Shown here: positions 10,203 through 39,263 of the stretch, piece by piece
How positions within the stretch are numbered: the stretch's first letter is position 1
Layout: every line of letters starts with the position of its first letter
NCBI GenBank assembly: GCA_937906345.1
Contig: CALCXY010000027.1
Span: 1 to 56,835 of the forward strand
DNA: 56,835 nucleotides
Direction of reading: 5' to 3'
Source: Candidatus Woesearchaeota archaeon
GTDB taxonomy: Archaea; Nanobdellota; Nanobdellia; Woesearchaeales; CALCXY01
The notes under the pieces: model-generated
Databases searched by the model: none
Seen by the model: only the letters and a program-made list of their open reading frames with translations
What the model was told of the DNA's origin: nothing
Made by a program: the position numbers and the translations under genes

Positions 10203-10216
10203 TTTCTCTTCTTTGG

Positions 10217-10424
10217 TTGAACATATGTTTAACATGGATTTTCTCTACTCCCCATACCTGGTAAGGGGAGTAGAGAAAATCAGAAGGATCATGTTCAAAG
10301 AGAAGAAATGCCAAAACATACTTGATTTTTTTTCGGGTACTATATTTAACATTATTTTTATCATTTACATATATTCCCTTCAATTTCTCTCCCCATTACT
10401 TTGTAGGGGGAGAGAAATTGAGAC
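10217..10424 (+). ncRNA. double-hairpin RNA-like element, copy 1
   Basis: About 208 nt. TTGAACAT (10217-10224) pairs with ATGTTCAA (10291-10298) around a 17-bp perfect hairpin (10237-10253 with 10265-10281). A 15-bp hairpin follows (10380-10394 with 10407-10421). A homologous copy lies at 39264-39474 with the same layout. About 30 nt after hairpin 1 are identical in both copies, and both end GAGAC.AACAGAT. Pairing is retained despite changes in the stem. Strand is assigned by the common layout; a non-coding RNA or a mobile palindromic repeat are both possible. It lies just outside the integrated element. Confidence 0.55.
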
Positions 10425-10463
10425 TAACAGATCAACTCCTCAAGCTAAAAAGTAGTAAATGAA

Positions 10464-10496
10464 CAAAATTATAAGAAATAATGTGGGAAGGAGGAT
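10464..10496 (+). repeat. attachment-site repeat A (tRNA-Leu 3' end remnant)
   Basis: ATGTGGGAAGGAGGAT (10481-10496) is identical to the 3' end of tRNA-Leu at 38231-38246 and in the same orientation. It is preceded by AAATTATAAGAAATA, which reappears in repeat B. This is the expected footprint of integration into a tRNA gene. Confidence 0.7.
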
Positions 10497-10603: not shown

Positions 10604-10630
10604 AAAAATATAAGAAATAATGTGGGAAGA
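10604..10630 (+). repeat. attachment-site repeat B
   Basis: A second copy of the junction sequence: AAAATATAAGAAATAATGTGG and then GAAG. It shares about 25 bp with repeat A but only 10-11 bp of the tRNA end. TGCGATAGG begins 17 nt inside it, comparable with the inverse site at the right end, so B may be the functional left end of the present element. Confidence 0.55.
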
Positions 10631-10772
10631 TGCATATCAGCTTACCTGCGATAGGTGTAACCCCTTTTTTGGGTATTTTGGGACTATTTTACAATCCTCC
10701 TTTTTGTTTTTTTAGTTTTAGGATAAAGAAGTATATATAGTTTTTGGTAATGGGGGTTGGTAGGTAAATTTA

Positions 10773-11421: not shown

Positions 11422-12354
11422 CTAATGATTTAATTCCACATACGATACTCCTTTGTTTTTCAATTCATTTTTTATTGTTGGAATGGCTGAAAAGTTTTGG
11501 ACGACTATCATTCTGTCTTGTTGTGCTGCGTTGACTGCGCTGATTGCTTGTGTTGCTGTTGATCGTCCTCTATGTGCAAGGTACTCTACTCCTAAAGTAT
11601 CAAGTTGTTTATGGAAGGGGCATTCGAACATGTTTCTCTTTCTATTCACTCTAAAATCTAGCTCTGGTGGTTTTGGAAAAGGGAATAGTTCAACTATTGG
11701 CTGTAAAGCTTGTCTCAGCATGTTATCATATTCATCGCTAAAATCTGTTTTTAAATAAGCTTCTACTCCGTTATGTCCTTGTTTACATGCATCTTTCCAC
11801 ATTTCTCTATCCAATTTATCTACCATTCCCTCTCCTTGATAATAGCATTCACGCAAACATCCTAAAGCACTCAGACCCTCTTCGATCACAGAATTATTAA
11901 CACCTACACAAGTCATAGAAGGGGTGAGAGCGTATTTTAAAAAGGGATAATTCTCAAGAGCTTCATCAATGGTATTAGCTTCTTCCTCATTAAGTCCCTC
12001 TTGGATTGTATTTTTTGTTACTCTTGATTCATTTCTCTGAATTCCAATTAATTTCATATCAAATTTTTTTATCAACTGATCAGTACTTTGAATTAGTCTC
12101 GCTTGAATCTCTTGAAAGGGTCCTGAGCCAAGTAAGAAATAGACATGCCTACTTCCTTGATGCGAATCTTCAACAGTTGCGATATTCCTTTCTACATATT
12201 CTGCCACAGCTGGTATGTCATGCACATTAGGAACTGGCTGAGACATGAAGTTGTAGTTGAACTTTCTTTTCCAGTAAGCAGGGATAAAACTCCACTTTTG
12301 GTTAGGTATTGTGGGTAATCTAATTATTTTACCATCTGTTTGTGTTACTAACAT
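11422..12354 (-). CDS. element protein of unknown function (310 aa)
   Basis: A soluble protein with no signal peptide. It contains a Cys/His group in the middle (SALGCLRECYYQGEG) and RNMFECPFHKQLDTLGVEYL near residue 240, followed by an alpha/beta end (DRMIVVQNFSAIPTIKNELK) that resembles a Rossmann-like half. A Shine-Dalgarno GGGAGG lies about 10 nt before the ATG. The promoter must lie in the AT-rich gap shared with the divergent cargo operon. Not recognised; no function is proposed. Confidence 0.55.
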   Translation of the reverse strand: MLVTQTDGKIIRLPTIPNQKWSFIPAYWKRKFNYNFMSQPVPNVHDIPAVAEYVERNIATVEDSHQGSRHVYFLLGSGPFQEIQARLIQSTDQLIKKFDMKLIGIQRNESRVTKNTIQEGLNEEEANTIDEALENYPFLKYALTPSMTCVGVNNSVIEEGLSALGCLRECYYQGEGMVDKLDREMWKDACKQGHNGVEAYLKTDFSDEYDNMLRQALQPIVELFPFPKPPELDFRVNRKRNMFECPFHKQLDTLGVEYLAHRGRSTATQAISAVNAAQQDRMIVVQNFSAIPTIKNELKNKGVSYVELNH

Positions 12355-12389: not shown

Positions 12390-12640
12390 AGTTCGGAAGA
12401 ATTCCGAATTCTTTATTCCTTTTTGGTAGTAAAATTATATAATTCTAAGGGTTTTTATATAATTATGGCTTATATTATATATAAATTATATAATTTACTA
12501 TTCTAAAGTAACAAAAACAAGTAAGAATATAGACTTTCCCCTTATACAATATATATTGCCTTATAATTATATATATATATCTCTGAATCGGAAGATTTGC
12601 GAAAAATTGAAATAAAGATTTAGAAAATCCGCAGAATCTG
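12390..12640. promoter_or_regulatory. AT-rich divergent control region
   Basis: A gap of nearly 300 bp between divergent genes. TTCGGAA (12392-12398) and TTCCGAA (12402-12408) form a 7-bp palindrome with a 3-bp spacer near the minus-strand gene. Several TTATATAATT-type repeats (about 12435-12505) and a TATATATATATA run (12567-12579) follow. It can hold promoters for both directions, and the melting-prone repeats would also suit a replication start for the primase-encoding element. The latter is speculation. Confidence 0.4.
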
Positions 12641-12648
12641 GATATATT

Positions 12649-12840
12649 ATGTTCACTTCACAAACAAAAACTTTTCTTTCTTTTCTTTTTTTAGTATTTC
12701 TTCTTGTTTTAATTTATCTACTATTTTTTGTACCCTATGTCTCGGTTCTCCTCCTATTTGTTTTAATTAATGTTATCCTATCAATTTATAAATATAACTT
12801 CATTCTTTATATATATAAATATAAATTGGGAGGGAAATAA
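12649..12840 (+). CDS. possible small two-helix membrane protein
   Basis: 63 residues, mostly Leu/Phe/Val, with two membrane segments. Its stop lies one base before the cupin ATG, so it could be the first gene of the cargo operon. Its coding potential rests only on hydrophobicity and position; it could also be AT-rich noise. Confidence 0.35.
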   Translation: MFTSQTKTFLSFLFLVFLLVLIYLLFFVPYVSVLLLFVLINVILSIYKYNFILYIYKYKLGGK

Positions 12841-12841
12841 A

Positions 12842-13264
12842 ATGAGAAAGCATATTGTTGATACTACTCACATCTGGGGAGCTTATAAAGAAATTTTGTT
12901 AGGGGAAAATGTTATGTCTCGAGTTATTCGTTTTGGTGTAAATGGAATGACCTCTTTACATAGACACGCAGTAGATGAAATAGTAATTGTTGAATTGGGA
13001 AAAGTCTTATGTTATTCTGGAAATGATTCTGAAAATCTTGTTACTACAGAATATGGAGCAGGAGAAAGAATAATATTACCTGCAATGATGTGGCATTCTT
13101 GTGGTGCTATTCAGGGAATTTCCAAAGATATGCCCTTTGCTTTGGGAATAGAGTATATATTTGGTGATATTCAAGATGGAAAATATGTTATTGAGAGACA
13201 TCCAACAACTCCTTCAAAACCAACACCCTATAAACAATGGTCAGATTCCCTCCAGACACCATAA
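12842..13264 (+). CDS. cupin, sugar-phosphate isomerase-like
   Basis: 140 residues, single cupin barrel. HRHAVDEIVIVELGKVLCYSG is the HxH...E metal motif 1, and the second motif lies around LPAMMWHSCGA. The opening HIWGAYKEILLGENVMSRVIRF resembles type II mannose-6-phosphate isomerase cupins. A Shine-Dalgarno GGGAGGG is 7 nt before the ATG at 12842. The end overlaps the next gene by 28 nt. It is the first clear enzyme of the cargo operon, probably acting on a phosphorylated sugar or its product. Confidence 0.65.
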   Translation: MRKHIVDTTHIWGAYKEILLGENVMSRVIRFGVNGMTSLHRHAVDEIVIVELGKVLCYSGNDSENLVTTEYGAGERIILPAMMWHSCGAIQGISKDMPFALGIEYIFGDIQDGKYVIERHPTTPSKPTPYKQWSDSLQTP

Positions 13265-14367
13265 TTGCTGGAGCCAAACTAGAAAATGTATGGTTGCAGC
13301 AGAACAGTATAAATGGAACTGCTGAATATCAAGGCAGTAGAGTATTCTATAAAATTGCAGATGATCATCGATTACAGAAAGAAGAACATGGATATCATGT
13401 TCTTGAAAACTATTTACCTCAACCAAAATTCTTAGGCTATCATAAAATTGATGATATAAAAAGTATGGTTCTTTATGAACATGTTCCAGAATTAGAGCAG
13501 TATGAACATTTACTTCTGGGATGGATTAGACAAAAATCAGTAGGTGAATTAATTTGCTCAAAGGCATGGAATCAAGTTTGTAGTCTTCTTCAAAATATGC
13601 ATGCAAAAACTATGATTGCAGATACTCTTGGTATAACTAAAGAAATTTTTCGTCGAAGTAATGTTTTACCAAATGGAAAATTAGACAACCGTTATGGTTC
13701 AGATTGGGAAAGACTTGATTATCTTCTAGATATTAACGAAGTGGCAATCAACGGAAACTCAATGAGCTATAATTGGTCACAATACAAAAAGAATCTACGT
13801 GATTTTGGAACCAATAAAGAAGAAACAGTTATGGCCACAATACATGGTTCAGCAACTGAAATGCATATTTGTATGTTACCTATGTTCTTTGATATTACCA
13901 CAGCTGGAACTTATCCTGTAATGTCTGAATTGTTTATGTTCAATCTTTCGGCCTCTTTTACGGATGAATATGTTGTGCCAAGATTCTTTCCTTTGTTAGT
14001 CCCTCGCTTTCCAGAAGTATTAGAAGATTATAGAGAAGAATATGGGCATGAATGGACAATGCGGGAAAAAAGTATCATTGTAGATTTTACCAATCCTTAT
14101 CCTTCAATACGAGAATCACTTTTGAAATCTTTTAATCAACAAGTGACATTCCTTGATATTGAGCAAGGCCTAGAAATGCTTCCTCAATGGGATTGGAAAA
14201 ATGAATATACTCAATACACAATTTCTCGGCTCTTATCACTTTTTAATCTTCCTACATTACCAGAATCAGACCAAGCTCTTTTACTAACACATATGGCTCA
14301 ATTATACGATTGGATGGCAAACCCAGACCAATATTCCACAATACCCCATATAGGTGGGCAAACATGA
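13237..14367 (+). CDS. aminoglycoside-phosphotransferase-like kinase (APH fold)
   Basis: 376 residues. RVFYKIADDHRLQKEEHGYHVLENYLP gives the N-lobe Lys and the alpha-C Glu region; SMVLYEHVPE is the hinge. The catalytic loop is degenerate, HGSATEMHICM (about residue 204) instead of HGDxxxxN, followed by FDITTAG in place of the metal-binding IDWE. It may phosphorylate a sugar or other small molecule, or be an inactive member. Overlaps the cupin gene and shares an ATGA with the SDR gene, so translation is coupled. Confidence 0.55.
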   Translation: MVRFPPDTIIAGAKLENVWLQQNSINGTAEYQGSRVFYKIADDHRLQKEEHGYHVLENYLPQPKFLGYHKIDDIKSMVLYEHVPELEQYEHLLLGWIRQKSVGELICSKAWNQVCSLLQNMHAKTMIADTLGITKEIFRRSNVLPNGKLDNRYGSDWERLDYLLDINEVAINGNSMSYNWSQYKKNLRDFGTNKEETVMATIHGSATEMHICMLPMFFDITTAGTYPVMSELFMFNLSASFTDEYVVPRFFPLLVPRFPEVLEDYREEYGHEWTMREKSIIVDFTNPYPSIRESLLKSFNQQVTFLDIEQGLEMLPQWDWKNEYTQYTISRLLSLFNLPTLPESDQALLLTHMAQLYDWMANPDQYSTIPHIGGQT

Positions 14368-15041
14368 AAAATTGTATTATTACAGGAGCTAGCAGAGGTG
14401 TAGGTATGGCACTTGCCCAACAACTCTACACCAAAAGATATGGGTTAGGGTTAGTAGCAAGAACATTTGATAACGACTCCTTGCCTGAGAATAACTCAAC
14501 TGTTTACAAGTATAGATATGACATTTCCAAAGTAGATCAAACATTAAAATTCTGTGAAAGAGTAAAACAAGATTTTGAAACGGTAGACATACTTATTAAC
14601 AATGTGGGATTTAATACACATAAAACAAGAATTGAAGATTTTGGATTACAGGAATATAGTGACATTATAGACCTTAACCTTAAAAGTCATTTCTACATAA
14701 CTAATCAATTACTACCTATTATGCAACAACAGCAAAGTGGTCATATCATCAATATTTGTGGTGGAATTGCCTATCAATTAAAAGAAGATTGGGCACCGTA
14801 TGCATCAGCCAAATCAGGAATGATAGCATTTTCTCGTATTCTTTCTAAAGAGTGTATTCCTCATAAAATTAAGGTTACTACAATAATACCTTGTGGAATT
14901 GAGACAACATTTCATGATGGTCCCAGACCTAATTATATGTCTGCTGAGAGTGTTGCATCAATGATAGTTATGGCTGTAGAAGCACCTGATGATTTGGTTG
15001 TTCATGAATTAATCTTAAAGCCTTTGGAGGAAATATGTTAA
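14364..15041 (+). CDS. short-chain dehydrogenase/reductase
   Basis: 225 residues from the ATG that overlaps the previous stop (ATGA). TGASRGVG is the NAD(P)-binding glycine motif, INNVG the NNAG motif, and YASAKSG the catalytic YxxxK with a Ser-equivalent position (GG in NICGGI) poorly conserved. Classical SDR length. It would oxidise or reduce a hydroxyl or keto group of the pathway intermediate. An upstream in-frame start at 14310 would overlap the kinase by 58 nt and is not favoured. Confidence 0.85.
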   Translation: MKNCIITGASRGVGMALAQQLYTKRYGLGLVARTFDNDSLPENNSTVYKYRYDISKVDQTLKFCERVKQDFETVDILINNVGFNTHKTRIEDFGLQEYSDIIDLNLKSHFYITNQLLPIMQQQQSGHIINICGGIAYQLKEDWAPYASAKSGMIAFSRILSKECIPHKIKVTTIIPCGIETTFHDGPRPNYMSAESVASMIVMAVEAPDDLVVHELILKPLEEIC

Positions 15042-16030
15042 TCTCACCAAAAAATACTACTTCATTATTAGAAGAAGATATTATTCTATTACTTAATTCT
15101 ATAGGTGATACTGAAAATCCTGAATTTCTACAGAAAAAAGAAAAACTACCTGATGAAGCATTGGTAGAAAGTTTCAAAGAACTTACTGATTATTCATTAG
15201 AATCTACATCAGCTGCTATTATTGAAACTGCAAATAAAATACAAAATCAAATCAATACGCAGTATGTATTGGTTTCGTTGCCACGTGGTGGCACCCATGC
15301 AGGAATTGGGATAAAGTATGTCCTTAAACAAAATTTCGGGCAAGATGTTTCCCATTATTCAATTTCCATGTTAAAAGGTGTTGGTATTGATGCTTATGCA
15401 TTAGATTATGTTATACAAAAACACCAAAATCCATTTATTGTATTTGTAGATGGGTGGGTAGGAAAAGGTGAGTTAGCTCATGAATTAAGGAGAGCTATTG
15501 CAGATTATGAAAAATCAAAGCAGACATCTCTTCAACATCTATGTGCTGTTATTTCAGATCCTTATGAAACTGCAAATATTTCTGGAACTCATGCTGAACT
15601 TTTTATGCCTGAATCATTAATGGGGGCGACGATTTCAGGATTAGTAAGCCGATCAGGCAATCTACATGATTTAAGTTATCATTTTACAAGAGAATATACA
15701 GAATGGCAAGCACAGGACTTTACGAATTGGTATATTCAAAGGGTTAAAGATGCTATTGATAAAAATCCATTATATGTATTTCATACACCTCTTGATTTTG
15801 AACAGGTAACATCCTATATTCATTCACATCATGGATTAGAATCTAAAGATGCCTATTTTGGAGCAGCAGAGGTTCATCGTTCCATTGTCAGAAAACATCC
15901 GTCTAAAATTATACTTCGTGATAAAAATCATCCTTTGGCTTCACCATTATTAATAAGTGCTGCACAGAAAAACATACCCATTGTTGAAGATGTAAATCTT
16001 CCTCTATTTTCGGTGGCTTCAAAAAAATGA
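15035..16030 (+). CDS. StiP-type phosphoribosyltransferase-like protein
   Basis: 331 residues. VLVSLPRGGTHAGIGIKYVL, then HYSISMLKGVGIDAYALDYV and FIVFVDGWVGKGELAHEL (about 73-155) match the StiP/PRTase_2 family of tellurite-stress clusters; FVDGWVGKGE is the PRPP-loop equivalent. The C-terminal 60 residues (SKIILRDKNHPLASPLLISA) resemble the Pelota-like domain that accompanies such PRTases. In Ter-type clusters this enzyme is predicted to make a nucleoside-like compound with a HAD phosphatase, which is also the next gene here. Shine-Dalgarno GGAGG precedes the ATG inside the SDR end. Confidence 0.7.
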   Translation: MLISPKNTTSLLEEDIILLLNSIGDTENPEFLQKKEKLPDEALVESFKELTDYSLESTSAAIIETANKIQNQINTQYVLVSLPRGGTHAGIGIKYVLKQNFGQDVSHYSISMLKGVGIDAYALDYVIQKHQNPFIVFVDGWVGKGELAHELRRAIADYEKSKQTSLQHLCAVISDPYETANISGTHAELFMPESLMGATISGLVSRSGNLHDLSYHFTREYTEWQAQDFTNWYIQRVKDAIDKNPLYVFHTPLDFEQVTSYIHSHHGLESKDAYFGAAEVHRSIVRKHPSKIILRDKNHPLASPLLISAAQKNIPIVEDVNLPLFSVASKK

Positions 16031-17475
16031 TTGATGTGATATTGGATTTGGACAGTACACTTATCTTTAATGAGAAGCAACTCAGTGATGAAGAACTTTT
16101 ACTTGGACAATGTGTAAGTGAAGGAAAAAGTCCTTCAGAAAGAAATTACCTCCATCTCGATATTATTCCTTTATTAAAAGAATTTGGGTCATCGCATAGA
16201 TTTTCTCTTGCTACTGCGAGGTCACTTACAGATCTTAGAAGAATTGATATTCAAAAAATTCCTATAAATCACCTTTTTCTTCTTGAAAATGGAGGTGTTG
16301 TTCTTGATAAAAATCATGCTCCGATTCCTATTTGGGATTTTCCTCAGGATATCAAATCTCTTACCGATTCCCTTATAGAACAAGGTTATCAACTTGACCA
16401 ACGATATGATTATCAAACTGCAGTGATTATACAATCTGGAACTAAAGATAGTGCTGTCCATACTCAAATTATCGAAAATCTTCATAGGGATTTTTTGGGT
16501 GAGGATTTTTATTGTGTATCTGTTGGTAGACGAATTTTTATCAGTCCTATAGGTATTGGAAAATATTCCTGTATTCAACAATTAATCACTCAAAATTTTA
16601 TTAATCCGTTTTATATGGCTGCAGGTAATGATGAAAATGATAAAGAGATGTTATTACATGCTATTAGAGGATATGTTCCACAAAGTGCTACAATAGCTCC
16701 GAAATTGAAAGATGAACCCTGTATTACTCTTTGTCCTGGCACTTCTTTAGCTGCCAGTAAACAATTGATTGAATCCATTGGTCATGCTACCTTTCCCCTT
16801 TCCCTTGTCCATTATTATAGTACACCCGTAAAACAAGTTATGCTAAGAAATGACTTCCTAGATTATTGTCGAAAAAATCATGAAGTTGGAAAAACTATTT
16901 CACGTTCTTTATCTGCAAAAGATAATCTTATTTTTGTAGCAGGAATTTCAGGTTCAACAAAGACTTTTTTTTCAAATATGATGGGGATGTTGAATGATAA
17001 TTATTCAGTATTACATTTGGATATTTATGCGGATAAGACTTCCACTGTAGGACCAGCCGTTTCAAAAACATTTATTCCACAATATTTTAAGTTTGATGAA
17101 TCAAAAAATCAGCTTAATCAATTGTTACAAGGTACTGTCTTACATGTTCCTATTTATTCTCACGAGCATAGAAATATTGGTAGCGAACATGAAATGGTAC
17201 ATCCGAATGATAACTATGTATGTGAAGGTATACACGCCCATAATCCTGAATTTAATGAATTTGGTGAAAACCATCATGCAATTAAAGTTCTCCTTTATGC
17301 ATCTAAAGAATATTTTAATGCATTTACAAGAACAGGCAAACCAATGTCAAAAGAAGTAGCAGATAGAAGATACCAAAGTTATTTAAAGAATGTTTACTCA
17401 TATAGTAATGATGCTCAGATAATCCTTACTGTTAACCTAGAGCATCGTCTGCATATTCAAAAAATGGAAGTGTAA
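16027..17475 (+). CDS. HAD phosphatase fused to a uridine-kinase-like P-loop domain
   Basis: 482 residues. HAD half (1-235): DLDSTLIF (motif I), ATARS (motif II), LLENGGVV, and AAGNDENDKEML (motif IV). Kinase half (about 290-480): Walker A GISGSTKT, then PIYSHEHRN, equivalent to the YDxxxHxR of uridine kinase/phosphoribulokinase, and VCEGIHAH. The Walker Lys-Thr pair is intact. One protein could thus dephosphorylate and rephosphorylate a sugar or nucleoside. Overlaps the PRTase by 4 nt and is followed after 2 nt by the isomerase gene. Confidence 0.75.
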   Translation: MIDVILDLDSTLIFNEKQLSDEELLLGQCVSEGKSPSERNYLHLDIIPLLKEFGSSHRFSLATARSLTDLRRIDIQKIPINHLFLLENGGVVLDKNHAPIPIWDFPQDIKSLTDSLIEQGYQLDQRYDYQTAVIIQSGTKDSAVHTQIIENLHRDFLGEDFYCVSVGRRIFISPIGIGKYSCIQQLITQNFINPFYMAAGNDENDKEMLLHAIRGYVPQSATIAPKLKDEPCITLCPGTSLAASKQLIESIGHATFPLSLVHYYSTPVKQVMLRNDFLDYCRKNHEVGKTISRSLSAKDNLIFVAGISGSTKTFFSNMMGMLNDNYSVLHLDIYADKTSTVGPAVSKTFIPQYFKFDESKNQLNQLLQGTVLHVPIYSHEHRNIGSEHEMVHPNDNYVCEGIHAHNPEFNEFGENHHAIKVLLYASKEYFNAFTRTGKPMSKEVADRRYQSYLKNVYSYSNDAQIILTVNLEHRLHIQKMEV

Positions 17476-17477
17476 AC

Positions 17478-18203
17478 ATGCCAAAAATTGGAATAACAAC
17501 CAGCACATTAGATAATAAAAAATGGTATAAAGAACTTGCAAATATTAAAGTATTGGAGGTTGGTCTACGTTCTGCCCGATTTTTCTTTGACCCAGAATGG
17601 ATAGATAAAATAAAACCTTTTCTTAAAGGAATTGACCTAAGCATGCATTCAGGCACAATAAAAGTATTTGTGGGTAACGAACAGTTTGTCAAAACTGAAT
17701 TAGAAACCCTAAGAGCAGAAATACTCTGCTGTGAGATGATAGGCGCAAAAGAACTCATTTTCCACCTTAAACATGATAAACTTCTCCCCAACGAAGAAAG
17801 AGAACTTCGCCAGATAATAAATTTTGCTAAACAACATAATGTAGAGATGATTTTTGAGTCTAATGGCATATTAGTAGCTGATGTAGCTCTTGACTTTCTA
17901 AAAAGAATTCCAGATGTTCAATATAATCTTGACCTTGGACATCTCAATCATGGTATCGGGAAAGATATGCTGGGAATGCCTTTAGATCAATTCTTATCCC
18001 AAATAAAAGATAGGACAACTTATGTCCATGCGCATAATAACAATGGACAAAAAGACAACCATCAAAGCTTAGTAAATGGAACATTAGATTGGAAACATGT
18101 TTTGAATATATTAGGTAAAGATAAAATAAAGAAAATAATAATAGAATGTAGAACAAAAGAAGATGTAGGAGAGAGTATTAAAGCTTTAGAACAATACATT
18201 TAA
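17478..18203 (+). CDS. xylose-isomerase-like TIM barrel protein
   Basis: 241 residues. Barrel strands LEVGLRS, DLSMHSG, ELIFHLKH, MIFESNG, YNLDLGHLNHG, YVHAHNNNG and IIIECR carry the Glu, Asp/His and Glu metal ligands typical of AP_endonuc_2 sugar isomerases and epimerases. It is the last gene of the cargo operon, so it likely interconverts the sugar part. Endonuclease IV activity is unlikely because the full set of zinc ligands is not present. Confidence 0.75.
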   Translation: MPKIGITTSTLDNKKWYKELANIKVLEVGLRSARFFFDPEWIDKIKPFLKGIDLSMHSGTIKVFVGNEQFVKTELETLRAEILCCEMIGAKELIFHLKHDKLLPNEERELRQIINFAKQHNVEMIFESNGILVADVALDFLKRIPDVQYNLDLGHLNHGIGKDMLGMPLDQFLSQIKDRTTYVHAHNNNGQKDNHQSLVNGTLDWKHVLNILGKDKIKKIIIECRTKEDVGESIKALEQYI

Positions 18204-21550: not shown

Positions 21551-22537
21551 TTAAGCTACTTGTTGTAACCCATCTATTTGCTGTCTTTTTTTACTAATAA
21601 GCTCCATAATTTCTCTGTTGGCTTTTTGATTACACATAATAAACCCATTATAATTTCTGACATGGTGAATATCATATTTTAACACATTGCCAAAACAATC
21701 GGTAACACCCATTCCAGCTTCTCTGGCAATAATATCTCCCGCAACCACATCCCAAGCCTTTACACTCAACTTTATAGTCATATCTGCTTTTCCTGCTATC
21801 ACATCTGTCATACCAATAGTTGTATTGTTCTTGTCTTCCATTCTGTGCTTAGGCAGAACAGATAACACTTCGAGAAGACCTGACTTCCATGGCTCATCTT
21901 TATTTCTAATGCCCCAAATGAACAAATTACTTACTCCTTTGTACCTTGGGCCATGCACTGGCTTATAATTAAGATAGGCTCCTTTTCCTGCTTGAGCCAA
22001 GTATAAATCATCATGTACAGGGTCAAAAATCACTCCGAGAACAGGCGTATCTCCTTTCAGCAAAGCTATGCTTACCCCAAAATCCGGTATGCCTTGCCTA
22101 TAGTTATTTGTGCCATCAATAGGGTCAACCACCCACTTAAAACTCGAATGTTTATCATGTACTCCTGTTTCTTCACCGAGAAACTCATGGTACGGAAAAT
22201 AGGCATGAACAGTTTTGAGAATAGCATCTTCTGCCTTTGTATCCGCAATGGTCAACGGGTCATCCTCCCCTTTCCAAGACACCTGCAACTTATCAGAACG
22301 AAAATAGTGCATAGCTATCTTTCCAGCTTTGAGTGCTGCCATGACTGCAACAAACATTTCCAAACTCATACGCTTCAAAAACTGCTCATTAAAATTATGC
22401 CCTTCTAATGCATGAAGACTCTTTACCACTTCTGCTATGAGCTGATTAATTTTTCTTACTGTTCCTACTTGATCCATGTGTTGCAATTGTGCATGAATTT
22501 TTAGGTTCCCAGTTTGTAAAAACTTTCTCACAAGCAT
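21551..22537 (-). CDS. suhB: inositol monophosphatase-family phosphatase
   Basis: About 328 residues. The IMPase metal motifs are present: GEETG, WVVDPIDGTNNYRQGIPDFG (DPxDGT) and AWDVVAGDIIAREAGM (WDxxAG). They place it among Mg-dependent phosphatases of inositol phosphate, fructose-1,6-bisphosphate or 3'-phosphoadenosine phosphate. The family core starts near residue 75, so there is an unusual helical N-terminal extension. The frame is also open to a TTG at 22585; the true start is uncertain. It may act with the sugar-phosphate cargo operon. Confidence 0.75.
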   Translation of the reverse strand: MLVRKFLQTGNLKIHAQLQHMDQVGTVRKINQLIAEVVKSLHALEGHNFNEQFLKRMSLEMFVAVMAALKAGKIAMHYFRSDKLQVSWKGEDDPLTIADTKAEDAILKTVHAYFPYHEFLGEETGVHDKHSSFKWVVDPIDGTNNYRQGIPDFGVSIALLKGDTPVLGVIFDPVHDDLYLAQAGKGAYLNYKPVHGPRYKGVSNLFIWGIRNKDEPWKSGLLEVLSVLPKHRMEDKNNTTIGMTDVIAGKADMTIKLSVKAWDVVAGDIIAREAGMGVTDCFGNVLKYDIHHVRNYNGFIMCNQKANREIMELISKKRQQIDGLQQVA

Positions 22538-22628
22538 TAACAACTTATACACTTCCGTATAATGAGGGTCACCACTCCAGCCCAAAAAGGTGTTTTTCTA
22601 AAGGTTCAGGTATTTGGGGTTGGGGATA

Positions 22629-25939: not shown

Positions 25940-26428
25940 ATGGAAGAAATGATGGATGTCATAAATGAGAAAAATGAAGTTATAGATTCACTATCTAGAC
26001 CTGAGTTAAGAGAAAAAAATTTACTCCACAGAAGCGCTATAATATTCCTATTTAATTCCAAAGGTGAACTATTCGTGCATAAAAGAGCTTCCTGCAAGTA
26101 TAGCTTTCCTTCTCATTGGGATATGACCATAGGAGGAGGAGTTATAAGCGGAGAAGAATATGAAAAAGCTGCTCAAAGAGAATTACTAGAAGAAACTAAC
26201 ATATCAGAAAAAATAAAATTTTTATTTGATTTTAGATTTAAATCTGACACCGATAATTTTATTGGAAAAGTATTTACCTGCGTTTCGGACGACAAAGTCA
26301 GTTTTCCCTCTGATGAAATATCTGAAGGAAAATTCATGAGCATTAAAGCTTTAAAAACATTTATGAAAAAAGAAAAATTTTGTCCAGATTCCATAAAAGT
26401 TTTTGAAAAATACATGAAAAAAAATTAG
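25940..26428 (+). CDS. Nudix hydrolase
   Basis: 162 residues. The Nudix box is complete: GGVISGEEYEKAAQRELLEETNI (GX5EX7REUXEE, about residues 69-91). The opening MDVINEKNEVIDSLSR and HRSAIIFLFNSKGELFVHKRA resemble the IPP-isomerase/YfcD branch, though the isomerase catalytic Cys is not obvious. It probably hydrolyses a nucleoside diphosphate derivative. A TATA box at 25907-25915 gives a leaderless start. Confidence 0.8.
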   Translation: MEEMMDVINEKNEVIDSLSRPELREKNLLHRSAIIFLFNSKGELFVHKRASCKYSFPSHWDMTIGGGVISGEEYEKAAQRELLEETNISEKIKFLFDFRFKSDTDNFIGKVFTCVSDDKVSFPSDEISEGKFMSIKALKTFMKKEKFCPDSIKVFEKYMKKN

Positions 26429-28575: not shown

Positions 28576-31500
28576 TCATTTCTTCCCTCTTTTAGTCTTT
28601 CTACGCTTTTTAGAAGAACCTTTTATCACTTTTTTCTTAACAAGTTTGGGCGAAACCTTCCCGAATTTGGGCGGAAAAAAAACCCGCCTAATAACACTCT
28701 CAACATTCTTCCGAGTGTACACTTTGCCAAACTCTTTGTATTTGTAAGCGTACTCTGCATTTGTCACAACAAAGAACCACCTGTTCCCAAAACTCCTATT
28801 AAGACTTTTCACTTTCTCTTTTAACTTGCTTGGTGCTTTGTCAAGATGAGAACCTGTCTCAACTTCAACAGCCCACTTTTTGCCTTTTGCAACAAAAACA
28901 ATATCAGGCTTCACACTATGAAACAACTCCACCTTATCAGTAAAGGTTTTAACAAATTCTTCTAATGCTTTGACTAAGAAAAAGTGTTTAGGACTCTCAC
29001 TAACTCCCTTAGGCTTTAACAAGTAATCCTTTCTTTGTCCGCCACCAAGACCTACATGTGAACTCACAATATAGCCATGACTTAGTAAAAAACGAATATC
29101 ATCAGAAGATAATTCTGCTCTCTTAAAAAATCCTTTATCTGGATTAAGTTTTACATGAACATCCTTACCCTTCTCTTTCCTTGTTGTTTTCTTTTCTGGC
29201 TTGAGTTTAAGCTCTTCAGGATTCGTTGTTATAATATCATGTTCTTTATCACTTGCAACAATTTTTAATTCTGTATGTTCGTTCTCAATTAATAAGATGC
29301 CTTCTCCTTTACCACATACTAACAGGTTCTCTTTTTCAGAAAAGCTTAGTTGGAATGCTTTAACCAAGTTCTCAATAGCACTAGGCTTCTGTCTCAAAAG
29401 AAGTGTAAAAGAACTATTAGCTAATACAGCATGACCAGCATCACTTCCCACAAGATCAGCAACGTCTTGTGTGATAAGTAACAAGCCAAGATTGAATTTT
29501 CTGCTTGTCTTTACAATCTCAAAAATGTAACTAGCATCTTCTGCCCTGCCTAAAAGACTCCATGCTTCGTCCACAATTAATAATTTCCTTTCCTTATCGC
29601 TTTTCATCTTCATATACACAAAATCAAGTACTAAAAACATAATAACAGGTTTTACCTGCTTGGGCATGTCACCAATGTTAAAGCATACAAAAAAGTTATC
29701 AAAATCAAACTTCGTGTGTTTGTTTAGAAAACTGAATACTCCATCAACATACATACTCAACCGGTTCAACAAACTTTGATATGTGGGTTTTTCAATAACA
29801 CTAGCTCCTCTGCTCATATTCATAAGCTCATATAACAAATCTTGCAGGATAGGTGGTTTGTTCTTCCATGTTTTAGGATCATTAGTAATGCCTTTCCTTG
29901 AGTAGGTGTTTGTGAGTGCTTTGTCTAATACTGCTTTTTGAATATCGCTAATCTCGCCAAGCATAACCCTCATCAAATCAATCAAGGTCATTCTTTTTTC
30001 ATCATAATCATGCCCCATGAGGTCAAGAGGATTGATGATAAGCTCAGAACTTCTAGAAATAGTAATAAGCTGACCATTAAACTTTTTACACAGCTCAGAG
30101 TATTCTCCTTGTGGATCAATTACAATAACACGAGTACCATTTAATAAGTGTCTTGAAATGAATAGTTTTGCAAAATATGATTTACCACTCCCACTCGTAG
30201 CTAAGATTAATCCATTCGGGTTGGTAAGAGAAAAAATGTCTCTTACAATTGGTACGTCATTGGTATTCATACCAAACCATACACCTTGCTCATCAACTTC
30301 TAAAAATTGACTGGTAAAAGGAAAAAACGCTGATAAAGCCTTAGTAGTTATGTTACGCTTAATGCCTAAATCGTTGAAGCCTAAAGGAATACAACTTCTT
30401 AGGCCTTGACTCATTTGAAAACTGGCTCGTCTTGGAATCATCATAAGTCCTGAAAGTTCAGACTCTAACTTTTTGGTTAAAAGATTGAGTTCTTCTAGTG
30501 TTTTAGCCTTGCAATTAATGTAAAAACTCACATTAAACAATTTCTCACTTCCTTTTTGTAAGTTTTCTAAAACATTTCTTGTATCAGTATATTTTATCTC
30601 TAGACTAGGATTAATCGCTCCTTTTGATTCAGCAGAAAACAAATCAGCTCTCTGCTTTTGTAATTCCCTATTCAGATTAACCATAATAGTTTCTATAGCA
30701 AATGGTTCAATATGAAGGCTCACATCAAAATTACCCTTGCACGTAACAATCCTGTCAAGAAATCCTGCTTCTACCACTCTCGGATACCCTGCTGTGGTTA
30801 GCACCCTGCAAAAAAAGTCATCCACTTTGATATAATCTACATGGTTTTCTATATGTTGTGGAGCTATTAAGCAATGCAACACATCCTGCTCACCTGCATC
30901 AAGCAAATACGCAGAGTGTTCCTCATCCTTCAACAAATCTTTAAAAAAAGAAGCTAGGGTTTGGATAAGTTCTTCTTTGTCTAACCTTTTGGTTTCCAAA
31001 TTAAGATTGCTGAGTTTCTCTTGACACACACTTAACTGAATTTCCAAACCAATACTTTCTACTTCGGGAATGATTAAGAAAAAGGTTCGGTTCATCATAG
31101 CATTAGTCCCAATCGTTTCTTCTAGGTGTTTTTTGTAATCTTCAAAATTGTTTAAGTAATCCTCATTTCCTGTTACTTCAGCTGTAGTTTCTACTCTTGA
31201 TTGTAAAGCACCCAAGTATAGATCTAGATTGAGTGTGTCTGTTCCCATCACCACTTGAATCCTGAAATCTAAGCCATCTAAGAAACGTTGAAACCCAGCA
31301 ATAATAGCATTTCTCTCTTGCATATTCTTAATACTAAAATTCAAAGGGGTTACCTGGAGTATTCCTGCCTTTTTTATCTTCTTGCCTTCCTTAACTTCAA
31401 CAACACTCTTCTCAATATTTTGAACAGGTATGAATTGTTTCATCTTCTCTGTTTGTAAACTGGCTTTTCTAAAACTGAAAAAAAACTTCCAATTCAACAG

Positions 31501-31710
31501 AGTATTTTTGAAATTACAAAACATGAAAAGTAATCCTATTAGTGTTGGTATGGTTGTTAAGAAAATTCTGAAAGGTAAACTCAATCCTGTTTTAAAAAAC
31601 AACAACAAAGCAATAGGTAAGAAAATGAGGGCATATCCTAACTGTCCAGCTGTTAGTCCAAACAAAATCTTTTCTTTGTATTCTAGCTCTTGAGGTATTT
31701 CATAAGGCAT
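28576..31710 (-). CDS. virB4: PrgI-VirB4 conjugation ATPase with C-terminal nuclease-like domain
   Basis: 1044 residues. Residues 1-85: two membrane helices in a PrgI-like domain (IPQELEYKEKILFGLTAGQL). Residues ~130-480: VirB4 N-terminal region. ATPase: Walker A ATSGSGKSYF (~505-512), VIVIDPQGEY, Walker B LLIVDEAWSLLG (~713) and LLLITQDV. After ~850: a winged-helix-like segment and a PD-(D/E)XK-like domain, KPDIVFVAKGKKWAVEVETG (~934-953), with Glu where Lys is usual. VirB4 powers type IV secretion; the tail could process or bind DNA. Shine-Dalgarno GGAGG overlaps the end of the VirB6-like gene. Confidence 0.85.
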   Translation of the reverse strand: MPYEIPQELEYKEKILFGLTAGQLGYALIFLPIALLLFFKTGLSLPFRIFLTTIPTLIGLLFMFCNFKNTLLNWKFFFSFRKASLQTEKMKQFIPVQNIEKSVVEVKEGKKIKKAGILQVTPLNFSIKNMQERNAIIAGFQRFLDGLDFRIQVVMGTDTLNLDLYLGALQSRVETTAEVTGNEDYLNNFEDYKKHLEETIGTNAMMNRTFFLIIPEVESIGLEIQLSVCQEKLSNLNLETKRLDKEELIQTLASFFKDLLKDEEHSAYLLDAGEQDVLHCLIAPQHIENHVDYIKVDDFFCRVLTTAGYPRVVEAGFLDRIVTCKGNFDVSLHIEPFAIETIMVNLNRELQKQRADLFSAESKGAINPSLEIKYTDTRNVLENLQKGSEKLFNVSFYINCKAKTLEELNLLTKKLESELSGLMMIPRRASFQMSQGLRSCIPLGFNDLGIKRNITTKALSAFFPFTSQFLEVDEQGVWFGMNTNDVPIVRDIFSLTNPNGLILATSGSGKSYFAKLFISRHLLNGTRVIVIDPQGEYSELCKKFNGQLITISRSSELIINPLDLMGHDYDEKRMTLIDLMRVMLGEISDIQKAVLDKALTNTYSRKGITNDPKTWKNKPPILQDLLYELMNMSRGASVIEKPTYQSLLNRLSMYVDGVFSFLNKHTKFDFDNFFVCFNIGDMPKQVKPVIMFLVLDFVYMKMKSDKERKLLIVDEAWSLLGRAEDASYIFEIVKTSRKFNLGLLLITQDVADLVGSDAGHAVLANSSFTLLLRQKPSAIENLVKAFQLSFSEKENLLVCGKGEGILLIENEHTELKIVASDKEHDIITTNPEELKLKPEKKTTRKEKGKDVHVKLNPDKGFFKRAELSSDDIRFLLSHGYIVSSHVGLGGGQRKDYLLKPKGVSESPKHFFLVKALEEFVKTFTDKVELFHSVKPDIVFVAKGKKWAVEVETGSHLDKAPSKLKEKVKSLNRSFGNRWFFVVTNAEYAYKYKEFGKVYTRKNVESVIRRVFFPPKFGKVSPKLVKKKVIKGSSKKRRKTKRGKK

Positions 31711-31711
31711 T

Positions 31712-32638
31712 CTACTTACCTCCTTTGCCCATGGTAGCTATTGTGGTGATGCCTCTGCCAAGACTAGATTGTACCACAGTAAAAGCAGATTTCACAATTA
31801 CAAACAACACTAATAATATGACTAACATATCTATTAAGAAAAAAGTCATGGTACTCACTAAAATCTTAAAATTGGCAAAAAAAGTCAACTCAACGAGCAG
31901 AGAGCCGAATAGTAAGATGATGCTTTGAAAGAAGGGCAAAAAAATAGCAACCATCAAAATATTAATGATAAGCTTACCATACCCTCTCAGTACAGGAACA
32001 AAATTAAAAAAAAGTCCCAAAGGAAAAAACACGACTCCTGCTGCAACTACTAAATACCGAACACCTAACAATATTGCAGTAAAAAACAATGTTGAGACGT
32101 AAGGGATCAAAGAACCCAACTGGAAACCAAGATTAGGAATGTTATCAATAGTTAATAAAAAGAAATCTTCATTAATCATACCTACTATGCTCTCAGTAAG
32201 ACCTGCTCCAATATCAACGATAATTCCATATAAGAAAAAACTTGCTTGTACAAAAAACACCATAAGCACAACGTTTTTCAGCCACTCTTTGGCTAGTTCT
32301 CTTTTTTCAGGGTTGTTGCTGCCTATAACAAAATAAAACCCAGCAAACAAAATAAACAAACCATAAAATAATGAAATAATATACACAATGATAGTCCAAA
32401 GCCAAGCAAAACTTTCTATATTAACAGGTTCTGTAAGTAAACCCTTTACCATCCACAGAAAGGGCTGTACAGGAGCATTAAACACGCTAAGAGTAAACTT
32501 GTAAAACTTCTCAGGCAAACAAATACCTAAATTGGTTATTGAGCATTTTTCTTCTTCAGAATCCTCTTCTTCTGCTAAGGAAAGAGCTGGCGCTAACAAA
32601 AAGAAAAAAACAACCAAAGCTAAGGTTTTTGAAGGCAT
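31712..32638 (-). CDS. VirB6/TrbL-like polytopic membrane protein
   Basis: 308 residues: signal peptide (MPSKTLALVVFFFLLAPALSLA), an acidic Cys-containing stretch, then about six to seven membrane helices and a Gly/Lys-rich tail. Position directly before VirB4 and topology fit the inner-membrane channel subunit of a type IV secretion system. A TATA-like box at about 32655-32664 gives a leaderless start. Confidence 0.6.
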   Translation of the reverse strand: MPSKTLALVVFFFLLAPALSLAEEEDSEEEKCSITNLGICLPEKFYKFTLSVFNAPVQPFLWMVKGLLTEPVNIESFAWLWTIIVYIISLFYGLFILFAGFYFVIGSNNPEKRELAKEWLKNVVLMVFFVQASFFLYGIIVDIGAGLTESIVGMINEDFFLLTIDNIPNLGFQLGSLIPYVSTLFFTAILLGVRYLVVAAGVVFFPLGLFFNFVPVLRGYGKLIINILMVAIFLPFFQSIILLFGSLLVELTFFANFKILVSTMTFFLIDMLVILLVLFVIVKSAFTVVQSSLGRGITTIATMGKGGK

Positions 32639-32686
32639 GAATAGAAAAGATATTAACTTAAATAGTAAATACTCATTCTTCTTGAT

Positions 32687-33298
32687 ATGGGGAAAAAATA
32701 TATCATTTTCAATGTTATCACAATATTTATAGCGGTTTTTTCTTTTTTAATAGCTGGTCTATCTTTCTTGAATTCAATTGATTTTTTCTCTTCGTTTGAA
32801 TTAGATATTGATACTAGAGGAACATATTTAATTCCTATTAATAATGCAAATCAATTAAATTTTGCTATCCCTATAGAATTCTTAAACAAAGGAAAAATAG
32901 AGGGAATAGTTGAAGATGTTTTCTTAATGGTAAACCATAATAATAAAACAATAAGATATGATGCTCTATTTGAACTTGATTTAGCTAAATTTCATTCATA
33001 TTTCTGTTTGAATGGTGAAACAATGATAGGACCTTTCCTTCCATTTTCTCTAGTAGGAAAGAGTGCAAAAAGAAAAAATTTATTCTTTTTTACTCCTAAT
33101 AAGCTAGATCCTGGAGATTATTATATTAATATTCTTATAAAGACATCAGAAGATAGTATTCCAGTTGTATTTGATTCAATTAATATTTCTCTTCAAGAAA
33201 ATGACCTAATAGATCATATAGAAAATCAAAAAACATTTTTTTATATAAATAATGAAATTAAATTGAGATCTATTCCAACTAAAAAATGTGATAGTTAA
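32687..33298 (+). CDS. membrane-anchored extracellular protein, unknown
   Basis: 203 residues. One N-terminal membrane helix, then a beta-rich domain with IPIEFLNKGKIEGIVEDVFLMV, an immunoglobulin-like wording. It is the only plus-strand gene within the transfer block and shows a more AT-rich style, so it may be a later insertion. No family recognised. Confidence 0.5.
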   Translation: MGKKYIIFNVITIFIAVFSFLIAGLSFLNSIDFFSSFELDIDTRGTYLIPINNANQLNFAIPIEFLNKGKIEGIVEDVFLMVNHNNKTIRYDALFELDLAKFHSYFCLNGETMIGPFLPFSLVGKSAKRKNLFFFTPNKLDPGDYYINILIKTSEDSIPVVFDSINISLQENDLIDHIENQKTFFYINNEIKLRSIPTKKCDS

Positions 33299-33306
33299 TC
33301 TTATAG

Positions 33307-34449
33307 TTAAAAAATCAATGTATAATACTTCCTCACCCCATAATAAACCCCATATAGTATAGAAGAAAAAACTGAAAAATCAAATAATGTATGGAGTCTT
33401 TGTTTTTTTATTATTGGTGTGTTTTTCTTTTCTTTAGAAACTTTAATTTCTTCATAGCTTAGATCACAATCTTTAGTTTTATTATCAAAGAATGAGGCAT
33501 ATTGAATCTTACAACCTTCAGTATTAGCTATAGTAAACTTATAGGAATTGTTCTCTTGTTCTATATGAATATTATTAAAGTCTTGAGATATTTTTGGATT
33601 TGCTCTTAGAGTTAAAATATCATATGGATCTAAACTCACAATAACATCATAAAAATAGTTATCTTGAGAAAAATGGGAATCTTTAAATTGTAAAGTGAAA
33701 CTGTCAAAACCTGAAATGTTCAATACTCCTGAAGTAATATCAAAGTATTTATACAATATCTTAAAATTAATCTTGGGTAATTTGGAATAAAGTTTTGCTG
33801 TTTTCTCATCTTCCAAAATAACTTTATGAACTCTCTTTTCTGTTCTATCAAAAACACATTTATTACAATGACTGCAACACTTTCCTTTAAATTTACAGCA
33901 ACAATACCTTACATCCTTGTAATGTTCAACCTCAGTAACAATTTCAATATCATAGGAAGTCTTAAAATACAAGTCCTCTACTGCCAAAAAACTTTCAACA
34001 GGCTCATTGCCTAACAACACACCATTAAGAAACATACTAGCCTCGCTTTCATTCCCTATCAAAGAATATTCAGTTTTACAATCATTGCCTTCTTTTGTGC
34101 CATAAGGAATTACTATTTTATAACCAAAAGCAGACCTAACCTTACCCTCTCCAGAACTTAACAACATACCATCAAGAAATACAGAGGGGTTTACAGAAAC
34201 AATACTTAACCAAGCATCTCTAATAAACCCCTCAGAAACCAAAGAAGTCGCATTAGGAGCCTCACCAAAAACAACCTTACCATTCCAACCTTCTATAAAC
34301 TCATGGTTTGGAAATGAAGAATCTTGATAAACTAAGTTTTTAGCTAATAAATCCTGATCCTCTAAAGACAAGTTATTACAAACATCCTCTTGGCAAGGGA
34401 GAGCTAATGCTAATGGTAAAACTAGGGTTAATATGATGAAATATTTCAT
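33307..34449 (-). CDS. secreted Cys-cluster surface protein
   Basis: 380 residues: signal peptide (MKYFIILTLVLPLALA), a beta-rich ectodomain, a dense Cys segment YCCCKFKGKCCSHCNKC (near 182-198), and a membrane segment close to the C-terminus. The Cys cluster could bind metal or be disulfide-linked. Likely part of the mating-pore surface or an adhesin. No family recognised. Confidence 0.55.
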   Translation of the reverse strand: MKYFIILTLVLPLALALPCQEDVCNNLSLEDQDLLAKNLVYQDSSFPNHEFIEGWNGKVVFGEAPNATSLVSEGFIRDAWLSIVSVNPSVFLDGMLLSSGEGKVRSAFGYKIVIPYGTKEGNDCKTEYSLIGNESEASMFLNGVLLGNEPVESFLAVEDLYFKTSYDIEIVTEVEHYKDVRYCCCKFKGKCCSHCNKCVFDRTEKRVHKVILEDEKTAKLYSKLPKINFKILYKYFDITSGVLNISGFDSFTLQFKDSHFSQDNYFYDVIVSLDPYDILTLRANPKISQDFNNIHIEQENNSYKFTIANTEGCKIQYASFFDNKTKDCDLSYEEIKVSKEKKNTPIIKKQRLHTLFDFSVFSSILYGVYYGVRKYYTLIF

Positions 34450-34579
34450 GAGAATAAATTATTATGTTCAATCACTACTGGTAAAAAATCTCCATTTATG
34501 TCACAGTTTAAATTAAGTCTTCGACCTTCGTTACGGTTTTAGTATTATAAGGTTAGTTGAGCCTAACCCTACTTTTTGT

Positions 34580-34912
34580 TCATAATATCAAATTTACCAT
34601 GAAAGGAGCTGCCCAAATAATTACTAATCCAATCAATGTATAGGCTGCCATGTATTTGGCGTCATCTCTTTTTTTAAAGTCTGTCCCTGATGTCATAAAA
34701 GTAATGCCTGCGAACAACAAAAAAATAACTCCTATAACACTAGCAGTATACTTTATAAAATTGTAAATCTTAATCACAGGAGTAAGAATTTCATCAAACG
34801 CTTCTTTATCAGAATCACTAATCTCAGTGTCTAACTCTACTGCAAAGACATGCGTTGTGCTTATGACAAGCAACAACAGTAAGACACTGAATAAAGTAAT
34901 GGGTGATCTCAT
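34580..34912 (-). CDS. VirB2/TrbC-like pilin
   Basis: 110 residues. Signal peptide (LFSVLLLLLVISTTHVFA), an acidic spacer and two membrane helices joined by a short polar loop TSGTDFKKRDDAKYMA, the design of VirB2-type conjugative pilins. The gene overlaps the next upstream cistron by 4 nt. It supports assignment of the block as a type IV secretion system. Confidence 0.65.
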   Translation of the reverse strand: MRSPITLFSVLLLLLVISTTHVFAVELDTEISDSDKEAFDEILTPVIKIYNFIKYTASVIGVIFLLFAGITFMTSGTDFKKRDDAKYMAAYTLIGLVIIWAAPFMVNLIL

Positions 34913-36866: not shown

Positions 36867-38165
36867 TTAACATTTTTCTTTTGATTTTACTTCTTGATGA
36901 GCTAGTTGTCTCACGACTTCTCCTAACTTCTGTATCTGAGATCGCAACTCATCAATTTCCTTATCCTTGTGTTGCTCCTGTTCAAAAATTTTCTTCCTAT
37001 CTAGAGGTCTTTTGCATACTTCACACATAGTATTGGTGAATGAATTGAGCTTATCACAGAATAAGCATGTTTTAACTTCTGAAACTAGCTTATTGTTGTT
37101 GTTATCAGATTTTATGATTCCTCTTTGGATCAGTGCGTTCTTAAAGGTGTCATCAGCTTCAGATAAATCATATGTTTTTAACTGTTTGGTGCTAGTCCAT
37201 CTTGCTATGTGTTGAATTTCAACATCACTATATCCAGAGAGTCTCTTGAAAGTTACTCCGTTTCTCTTTAAGCTGTAGCAGGTGATCCTTTTGTTAATTT
37301 TTAGTTTAGCACAAGCAAGTCTTAATCTCTTGTTTAGATTGAAAGGTTTTTGCTGTTCTCCTTTTTTATATCGTTCATTGATAATGAAAAGAAAAGCTTC
37401 TGGATCGTTTTTGAAGGGGTGTTTTTCCAGCCATTTTGCTAAGTAAGGGTATGAATCAATGCATCGTAAAAAGCCTTGCACCCCTTCTTTTCCATGTTCG
37501 TGTAGGTATATTTTAGAGTAGTTATCATACATTTCAACGTCTCCTAAGCGGATATAACAGGCTTCTTGAGGTCTTACTAGGCTTTCATGTGCAAAAGTGA
37601 CGTAGAACTGCATCATAGGATCATAAGAAAAGAATTGTACTATTTTTGAGAACTCCTCTGAGGTGAGTTTATCTTTTCTACGTTTCTCTAGGCTCTTGTC
37701 CATTTTTGAGCGTAAATGCCTAACACAATAAGGTGTGAGAGTGTCATCAACTCTTCCTTTTTCATCAAGTTCAGGAAACAAATTCTTCCATAAATATTTT
37801 AAATCTCTTATAAAGTCTGCTTTGCTCTTAGGACTGGAATAACGAGTATGCATAAAAGCAACAATACTATTTATTTCTTCTCTGTTAGCTTCTTTATCAA
37901 TCTGTTTTAAATCCTTCTGTGTGGAATAAATAATAAGCCTGAAAGTGCCTAACAAACGATTTCTTCTGGAATAGCTTGTATCTCTTGCTTCAAGAATGGG
38001 AAACAATTTCCTTATATATGCTAAATTTGTAGTATTTTTACAATGATATTTACACCTTTTTTCTGCAAAACTCTTTCTTTGCTCTGGTTGTAATAATAAT
38101 CTGTTGAGATTTTCCTTAAATCTTTCATATTTTACCTTATTTCCATAAATATCCTCTTCAGCCAT
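36867..38165 (-). CDS. int: tyrosine recombinase (integrase) with C-terminal zinc ribbon
   Basis: 432 residues from the ATG at 38165; the frame is open through the tRNA, but a TATA box at 38189-38200 fixes this start. The catalytic core shows the first Arg in LVRPQEACYIRL (~197), a divergent second box YSLKRNGV (~300, Tyr for His), HIARWTS (~318) and the nucleophile in KTYDLS (~331). A helical N-terminal DNA-binding part precedes it, and CLFCDKLNSFTNTMCEVC forms a zinc ribbon after ~367. It sits inside the element next to tRNA-Leu, the classic integration arrangement. Confidence 0.85.
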   Translation of the reverse strand: MAEEDIYGNKVKYERFKENLNRLLLQPEQRKSFAEKRCKYHCKNTTNLAYIRKLFPILEARDTSYSRRNRLLGTFRLIIYSTQKDLKQIDKEANREEINSIVAFMHTRYSSPKSKADFIRDLKYLWKNLFPELDEKGRVDDTLTPYCVRHLRSKMDKSLEKRRKDKLTSEEFSKIVQFFSYDPMMQFYVTFAHESLVRPQEACYIRLGDVEMYDNYSKIYLHEHGKEGVQGFLRCIDSYPYLAKWLEKHPFKNDPEAFLFIINERYKKGEQQKPFNLNKRLRLACAKLKINKRITCYSLKRNGVTFKRLSGYSDVEIQHIARWTSTKQLKTYDLSEADDTFKNALIQRGIIKSDNNNNKLVSEVKTCLFCDKLNSFTNTMCEVCKRPLDRKKIFEQEQHKDKEIDELRSQIQKLGEVVRQLAHQEVKSKEKC

Positions 38166-38188
38166 TTTTATTACTGTAGAATAGTCCT

Positions 38189-38225
38189 CCTTTATAAAGG
38201 ATGTGCCACGCCTATCGCAACTAAG
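38189..38225. promoter_or_regulatory. integrase promoter and putative arm-type site
   Basis: CCTTTATAAAGG (38189-38200) is a perfect palindrome containing a TATA box 26-30 nt before the integrase ATG. CGCCTATCGCAACTAAG (38209-38225) is the imperfect inverse of CTTACCTGCGATAGGTG at 10641-10657, so recombinase or a helper may bind both ends. Confidence 0.5.
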
Positions 38226-38230
38226 AACAT

Positions 38231-38246
38231 ATGTGGGAAGGAGGAT
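38231..38246 (+). repeat. right attachment core within tRNA-Leu
   Basis: ATGTGGGAAGGAGGAT covers the acceptor and T-stem 3' end of tRNA-Leu and is identical to 10481-10496. Integration has left the tRNA complete. Confidence 0.7.
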
Positions 38247-39211: not shown

Positions 39212-39263
39212 TATTTCTAATTTCTATAAGGAGGTTACTGGTTTATTTGCTATATACGTTTCT

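Follow-up and report, generated by a model that had tools for sequence, protein, structure and literature searches.

A compact set of six genes was found on the plus strand at positions 12842-18203 of the window, i.e. the complete 56,835-nt contig CALCXY010000027.1 of a Candidatus Woesearchaeota archaeon (assembly GCA_937906345.1; 1.64 Mb, 123 contigs, 77% complete). The chances appear about evenly balanced that these genes form an operon for a small metabolite of nucleoside or nucleotide type, derived from a phosphoribosyl donor, which an integrated conjugative-type element of the archaeon carries as accessory cargo. Known is the Ter-type nucleoside core, while the combination of its StiP/HAD pair with the present set of partners is new. 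More tentatively, this core may have been freed of the Ter machinery and rebuilt with new partners into an undescribed pathway on a conjugative element, whose nucleoside-like product would benefit the element or its host. The operon comprises the following features:

12604-12841, plus strand: AT-rich region upstream of gene 1 with a TATA-like stretch and a GGGAGGG ribosome-binding site (putative, read from the sequence)
12842-13264, plus strand: gene 1 (P0001), small cupin of 140 amino acids (aa) (PF07883; metal-binding motifs HRH-AVD-E and P-AMM-W-H)
13237-14367, plus strand: gene 2 (P0002), protein of 376 aa without family assignment, bearing a kinase-like motif
14364-15041, plus strand: gene 3 (P0003), short-chain dehydrogenase/reductase (SDR) (PF00106, E=2e-38; YxxxK present)
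15035-16030, plus strand: gene 4 (P0004), StiP-type phosphoribosyltransferase (PRTase)-fold protein with a putatively PELOTA-like C-terminus (PF11202 and structural model)
16027-17475, plus strand: gene 5 (P0005), HAD phosphatase (residues ~1-290, PF08282) fused to a uridine-kinase/phosphoribulokinase-like P-loop domain (residues ~295-482, PF00485)
17478-18203, plus strand: gene 6 (P0006), xylose-isomerase-like TIM barrel of the sugar-phosphate isomerase/epimerase type (PF01261)

All six open reading frames (ORFs) are complete and contain no internal stops. The successive junctions are overlaps of 28, 4, 7 and 4 nt followed by a 2-nt gap, and because of this packing one shared transcript is very likely. 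Gene 1 is preceded by a strong Shine-Dalgarno sequence (GGGAGGG). The initial annotation, made from the DNA sequence alone, had described six tightly overlapping genes at these coordinates, which was borne out. The GC content of the operon (0.33-0.35) is the same as that of its surroundings and therefore gives no help for or against transfer. A 310-aa protein without family match is encoded divergently from the operon (11422-12354, minus strand) and shares the upstream region with it; it could be a regulator or an additional member of the pathway.

The operon is built around two enzymes, StiP and HAD, which in bacteria normally function only within a far larger stress-response cluster. The first of them, P0004, belongs to the StiP family (PF11202, E=5e-51; 173.7 bits against a curated cut-off of 28.7). 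A structural model built from an alignment of 45 StiP sequences (pLDDT 90.9, pTM 0.91) had PRTases of the HGPRT/PyrR type as its top PDB matches (E~3e-5, probability 1.00), with TM-scores of 0.4-0.57 to PRTases when normalised by target. The motif FxDGWxGKG is invariant across the 45 aligned StiPs and reads FVDGWVGKG in P0004 (residues 137-145), where it lies between a core strand (134-141) and a helix (146-162). HGPRTs carry the motif EDxxDTGKT, and given this motif and the position between strand and helix, FVDGWVGKG would represent the loop binding phosphoribosyl pyrophosphate (PRPP). According to the model, P0004 is thus a PRTase-fold protein with a PRPP-loop-like motif, in line with its first assignment as a StiP-type PRTase. 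The database label 'cysteine protease StiP' was rejected and is probably misleading, as none of the cysteines is invariant among the 45 StiPs and the fold is that of a PRTase; P0004 itself has a single cysteine (residue 170). Its PELOTA-like tail scored 22.2 bits with PF15608, under the cut-off of 25, and Glu279, Arg282 and Arg286 of the tail are invariant in the 45-sequence alignment; other residues of the tail differ in P0004.

The second element of the core is the N-terminal half of P0005 (PF08282, E=1e-8), which matches the HAD protein encoded immediately downstream of StiP in Metabacillus (locus L064, E=7.6e-11) and has the motifs DxD, TAR, K and G[DN]xxxD in common with StiP-linked HADs. 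The proposed pairing of StiP and HAD was thereby strengthened, since the P0005 HAD groups with the StiP-adjacent HADs of ter clusters. The C-terminal half resembles PRK/Udk-type kinases (PF00485, E=1.7e-6).

Three further proteins would supply the substrate. P0001 retains an intact HxH...E...H motif and matched PF07883 with E=1.6e-4, below the curated cut-off. P0006 matched PF01261 (E=4e-14) and has the same metal-binding residues as its relatives, which are about 50% identical in three genomes (G025, G312, G373) and are widespread in these archaea with different neighbours. Pfam thus upheld the earlier assignments of SDR, StiP, HAD-kinase fusion and TIM barrel, and that of the cupin with a match below cut-off, while an aminoglycoside phosphotransferase (APH)-like kinase was not recovered for gene 2.

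The operon lies in the left, variable part of an integrated element of 27.75 kb, which is bounded by a tRNA-Leu gene and an att repeat. The features of the element are:

10472-10496, no strand assigned: attL, with a 16-bp core (10481-10496) formed by the last 15 bases of tRNA-Leu and one flanking base
28576-31710, minus strand: VirB4/TraC-type ATPase with a PrgI-like N-terminus (PF19044, E=4e-27)
31712-34912, no strand assigned: type IV secretion system (T4SS) accessory stretch as a whole
31712-32638, minus strand: pilin-like gene, T4SS accessory
33307-34449, minus strand: conserved backbone gene with no assigned function
34580-34912, minus strand: VirB2/T4SS pilin
36867-38170, minus strand: tyrosine integrase adjoining tRNA-Leu (PF00589, E=3e-7)
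38222-38315, minus strand: tRNA-Leu (tRNA at 38232-38315) whose 3' end carries the right attachment core (tRNA scan and att repeat)

The chance expectation for such a 16-mer match was estimated at ~0.003. A second copy of the backbone is present in the same genome on contig 101 (G000:C101; 11496-19299 of locus L177), where the integrase stands beside a tRNA-Glu gene; integrase, backbone proteins, pilins and VirB4 are arranged as in the first element. Two backbone proteins of the two elements are 95% and 87% identical, whereas both their integrases and their VirB4 proteins are 54% identical, which on sequence grounds suggests module exchange between the two T4SS elements. Integrase, tRNA-Leu, att repeat, VirB4, pilins and the second backbone copy together substantiate the mobile element that the initial annotation had supposed. 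No relaxase or coupling protein was recognised by Pfam in the scanned genes of the element, several of which have no family, and some of its ORFs were not scanned. Relatives of VirB4 (44-59% identical) gave matches with E<1e-100 in more than 20 of the 145 genomes of the order, and StiP was detected above cut-off in this one alone of the 371 genomes of the phylum. As the backbone is common and StiP is not, the six-gene operon is a rare cargo. Integrated T4SS elements of these archaea are thereby shown to carry metabolic cargo.

The element shares with tRNA-integrating integrative and conjugative elements of the VirB4-type T4SS the tyrosine integrase by a tRNA gene, the att repeat, VirB4, pilins and the occurrence of several copies per genome; it differs from them in that no relaxase or coupling protein was recognised and that the other backbone genes of this archaeal version are without Pfam family. 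Just beyond each of its ends, 29 kb apart, a non-coding stretch of ~220 bp was observed (10213-10432 and 39260-39481) that contains two inverted repeats resembling hairpins (TCTCTACTCCCC...; AATTTCTCTCCCC...); the cores of the two copies are 90-95% identical, and an Rfam search gave no match. A partial second copy of attL (10604-10635) matches the first at 96% over 26 nt and is separated from it by 139 bp; it is perhaps a remnant of a past insertion or excision.

The Ter stress-response nucleoside module of Anantharaman, Iyer and Aravind (2012; cited through PMC7824862 and PMC5512222) is reported to combine StiP/PRTase_1-PELOTA, PRTase_2, HAD, an HpcH/HpaI-type C-C lyase, ATP-grasp and TerD/TerC. 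Like that module, the archaeal operon encodes a StiP-type PRTase, with a putatively PELOTA-like tail, beside a ter-type HAD, and both occur on mobile elements (plasmids and phage ME3 in the case of ter). In contrast, the host is archaeal, the HAD is fused to a kinase, a cupin, an SDR, a TIM barrel and P0002 join as new partners, and neither TerD, the C-C lyase nor PRTase_2 was found above cut-off in the assembly. For bacteria it was predicted, not shown, that the StiP PRTase and HAD make a threat-signalling nucleoside or nucleotide derivative (PMC7824862; PMC5512222).

The surroundings of StiP were then compared across 82 listed loci (80 from bacterial genomes and 2 viral; StiP loci of other kinds may exist). 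Of the 82, 76 encoded PRTase_2 near StiP, 70 the HpcH/HpaI-type lyase, 58 a ter-type HAD and 57 TerD, and none contained a relative of P0001, P0002, P0003 or P0006. Adjacent StiP and HAD genes on a mobile genome are likewise found in the Acinetobacter jumbo phage vB_AbaM_ME3 (L011), but the phage retains PRTase_2 and TerD-like genes and has none of the archaeal partners. Solitary StiPs of Thiotrichales/Thiomargarita (L026, L100) also have no ter partners within reach, and that of L026 is the closest to P0004 among the matches listed (34% over the best segment); these StiPs differ from the archaeal one in having no cupin, SDR, kinase or TIM barrel gene beside them. Three viral StiP loci had ordinary ter-type sets, and no viral or plasmid homologue of the complete six-gene set was obtained.

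Conservation of the whole operon in relatives was considered and rejected: P0001 (no relative in 219 phylum genomes) and StiP above cut-off occur only here, P0002 has weak matches, and for P0005 nothing more than a C-terminal fragment in G025 and generic kinases was detected. In G025, a genome of another family of the same order, relatives of the P0005 kinase half (40%) and of P0006 (51%) are encoded by neighbouring genes where a contig end cuts the locus. They are the sole recurring part of the new partner set, and since the VirB4 backbone gave no match in G025, the kinase-half/TIM-barrel pair can travel without this element. A neighbourhood search for the PRTase with its five partners, suggested earlier as a check, found the six genes together nowhere else; as only the pair in G025 recurs, the genes come close to never co-occurring elsewhere, the outcome that had been named as refuting the proposal.

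From the domain composition we infer the following reactions, their order, the product and its benefit. The TIM-barrel isomerase, the cupin and the SDR would prepare an uncommon sugar, polyol or base-like acceptor, and the kinase half of P0005 would phosphorylate an intermediate. Taking ribose-5-phosphate from PRPP, the StiP-type PRTase would then attach it to the acceptor. A phosphate would next be removed by the P0005 HAD half to yield a nucleoside-like product, which P0002 might bind or alter. By analogy to the Ter systems, the benefit is probably stress protection or competition between elements. An operon that has the StiP/HAD pair of the widespread ter clusters but neither TerD nor a second PRTase offers a small, expressible system for testing what this pair makes.

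Several observations weigh against such a pathway, the most serious being that no second assembly is known to contain all six genes. In the 77%-complete assembly neither TerD nor the HpcH/HpaI-type C-C lyase was found, and nothing above cut-off was obtained for PRTase_2, with one sub-threshold match of 38 positions on another contig; a full Ter system elsewhere in this genome was rejected as an explanation on these results. Of the partners that had been called missing, TerD is thus absent from the assembly, while the six operon proteins gave no Pfam match to TerC or ATP-grasp, neither of which was searched for genome-wide. No experiment that fixes the Ter product was found in the literature, so the Ter analogy rests on prediction. 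P0004 has a gap in place of the N-terminal HYSEM segment, which is near-invariant in other StiPs and is a family-wide feature not known as essential. In P0005, the P-loop reads GISGSTKT instead of ..SGKT, with a Thr at the Gly of uridine kinase (compared with L017), and HAD motif IV reads GNDEND where relatives have GDSxxD. P0003 has a Gly at the usual position of the catalytic Ser, as judged by the spacing to YxxxK and not by alignment. Finally, the APH-type motif HGD....N is changed to HGS....H in P0002.

For P0002 no match was obtained in Pfam (checked to E=10), NCBIfam, PHROGs or PDB, and among the 371 phylum genomes two weak relatives were detected, both archaeal (24% and 20% identity). 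P0002 reads HGSATEMHI..FFDITTAG and the relatives QGDPTQRNI..FFDFKTSG, the latter thus keeping QGD....N. A P0002 profile of only three sequences matched archaeal APHs with a probability of 0.4%, and a single-sequence model (pLDDT 35) was of no use. With no family and two weak relatives that carry a kinase-like motif, the label 'APH-like kinase' is a motif-level guess, and both the HGD and the Asn are lost. If the fold is nevertheless correct, catalysis of the usual type is unlikely from the sequence. A distant relative of P0002 in the archaeon G104 is a kinase-like protein fused to a NUDIX domain (1303-2829 of L006, minus strand). Operon enzymes other than P0002 may deviate at catalytic positions too, judging from the residues listed above. 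Since the reading frames are intact, these departures do not correspond to ordinary gene decay, and they may reflect altered chemistry.

Three other explanations were weighed. It is unlikely that the operon makes an uncommon sugar phosphate or activated sugar for surface glycans (decoration of the S-layer or of the element's pilus), with StiP using PRPP only as the sugar-phosphate source. Pathways for unusual sugars typically include a cupin, an SDR and a xylose-isomerase-like TIM barrel, the element bears surface and secretion genes as well as T4SS pilins, an inositol-monophosphatase-family gene is nearby, and just outside the element are genes for an S-layer protein and an FkbM methyltransferase. 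However, the operon encodes no nucleotidyltransferase, nucleoside diphosphate-sugar enzyme or glycosyltransferase, and cupin and SDR gave generic Pfam matches.

CbiR cleaves the phosphoribosyl bond in cobamides. It is the closest named NCBIfam model for P0006 (E=1.2e-7), and PRTase, phosphatase and kinase would be compatible with a salvage cycle; the operon could then salvage or remodel a phosphoribosyl-linked cofactor, e.g. a vitamin- or cobamide-like nucleotide loop, instead of making a signal. This appears quite improbable, as P0006 scored 31 bits where the CbiR cut-off is 105, relatives of P0006 occur widely among these archaea in the absence of the other genes, and no cofactor-specific enzyme is encoded nearby. 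Improbable as well is a conflict module in which StiP and HAD would make a Ter-like nucleotide signal that is read by degenerate partners, P0002 above all. Catalytic residues are lost in P0002 and possibly in three further domains, and the PRTase/HAD pair on mobile elements was linked to inter-element conflict (PMC7824862, PMC5512222), but a PADLOC search matched no model and the operon encodes no toxin, nuclease or membrane effector. The uses supposed in the initial annotation, namely DNA or RNA modification, defence, signalling and surface decoration, are guesses, and no partner for such modification was recognised.

Inside the element, an inositol-monophosphatase-family gene (21551-22585, minus strand) and a NUDIX gene (25940-26428, plus strand) were observed, which are possible helpers for phosphate or nucleotide chemistry. 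A gene for a PIN-domain protein (PF13470; 23496-24160, minus strand) has a small AbrB-antitoxin-like gene ahead of it, and the two likely form a toxin-antitoxin pair belonging to the element. The window also contains GINS51 and genes of the archaeal S-layer and related types, which show that the host is an archaeon, probably of the DPANN group. Tandem gene duplicates with stretches of 85-97% identity lie at 49255-49412 and 50000-50156.

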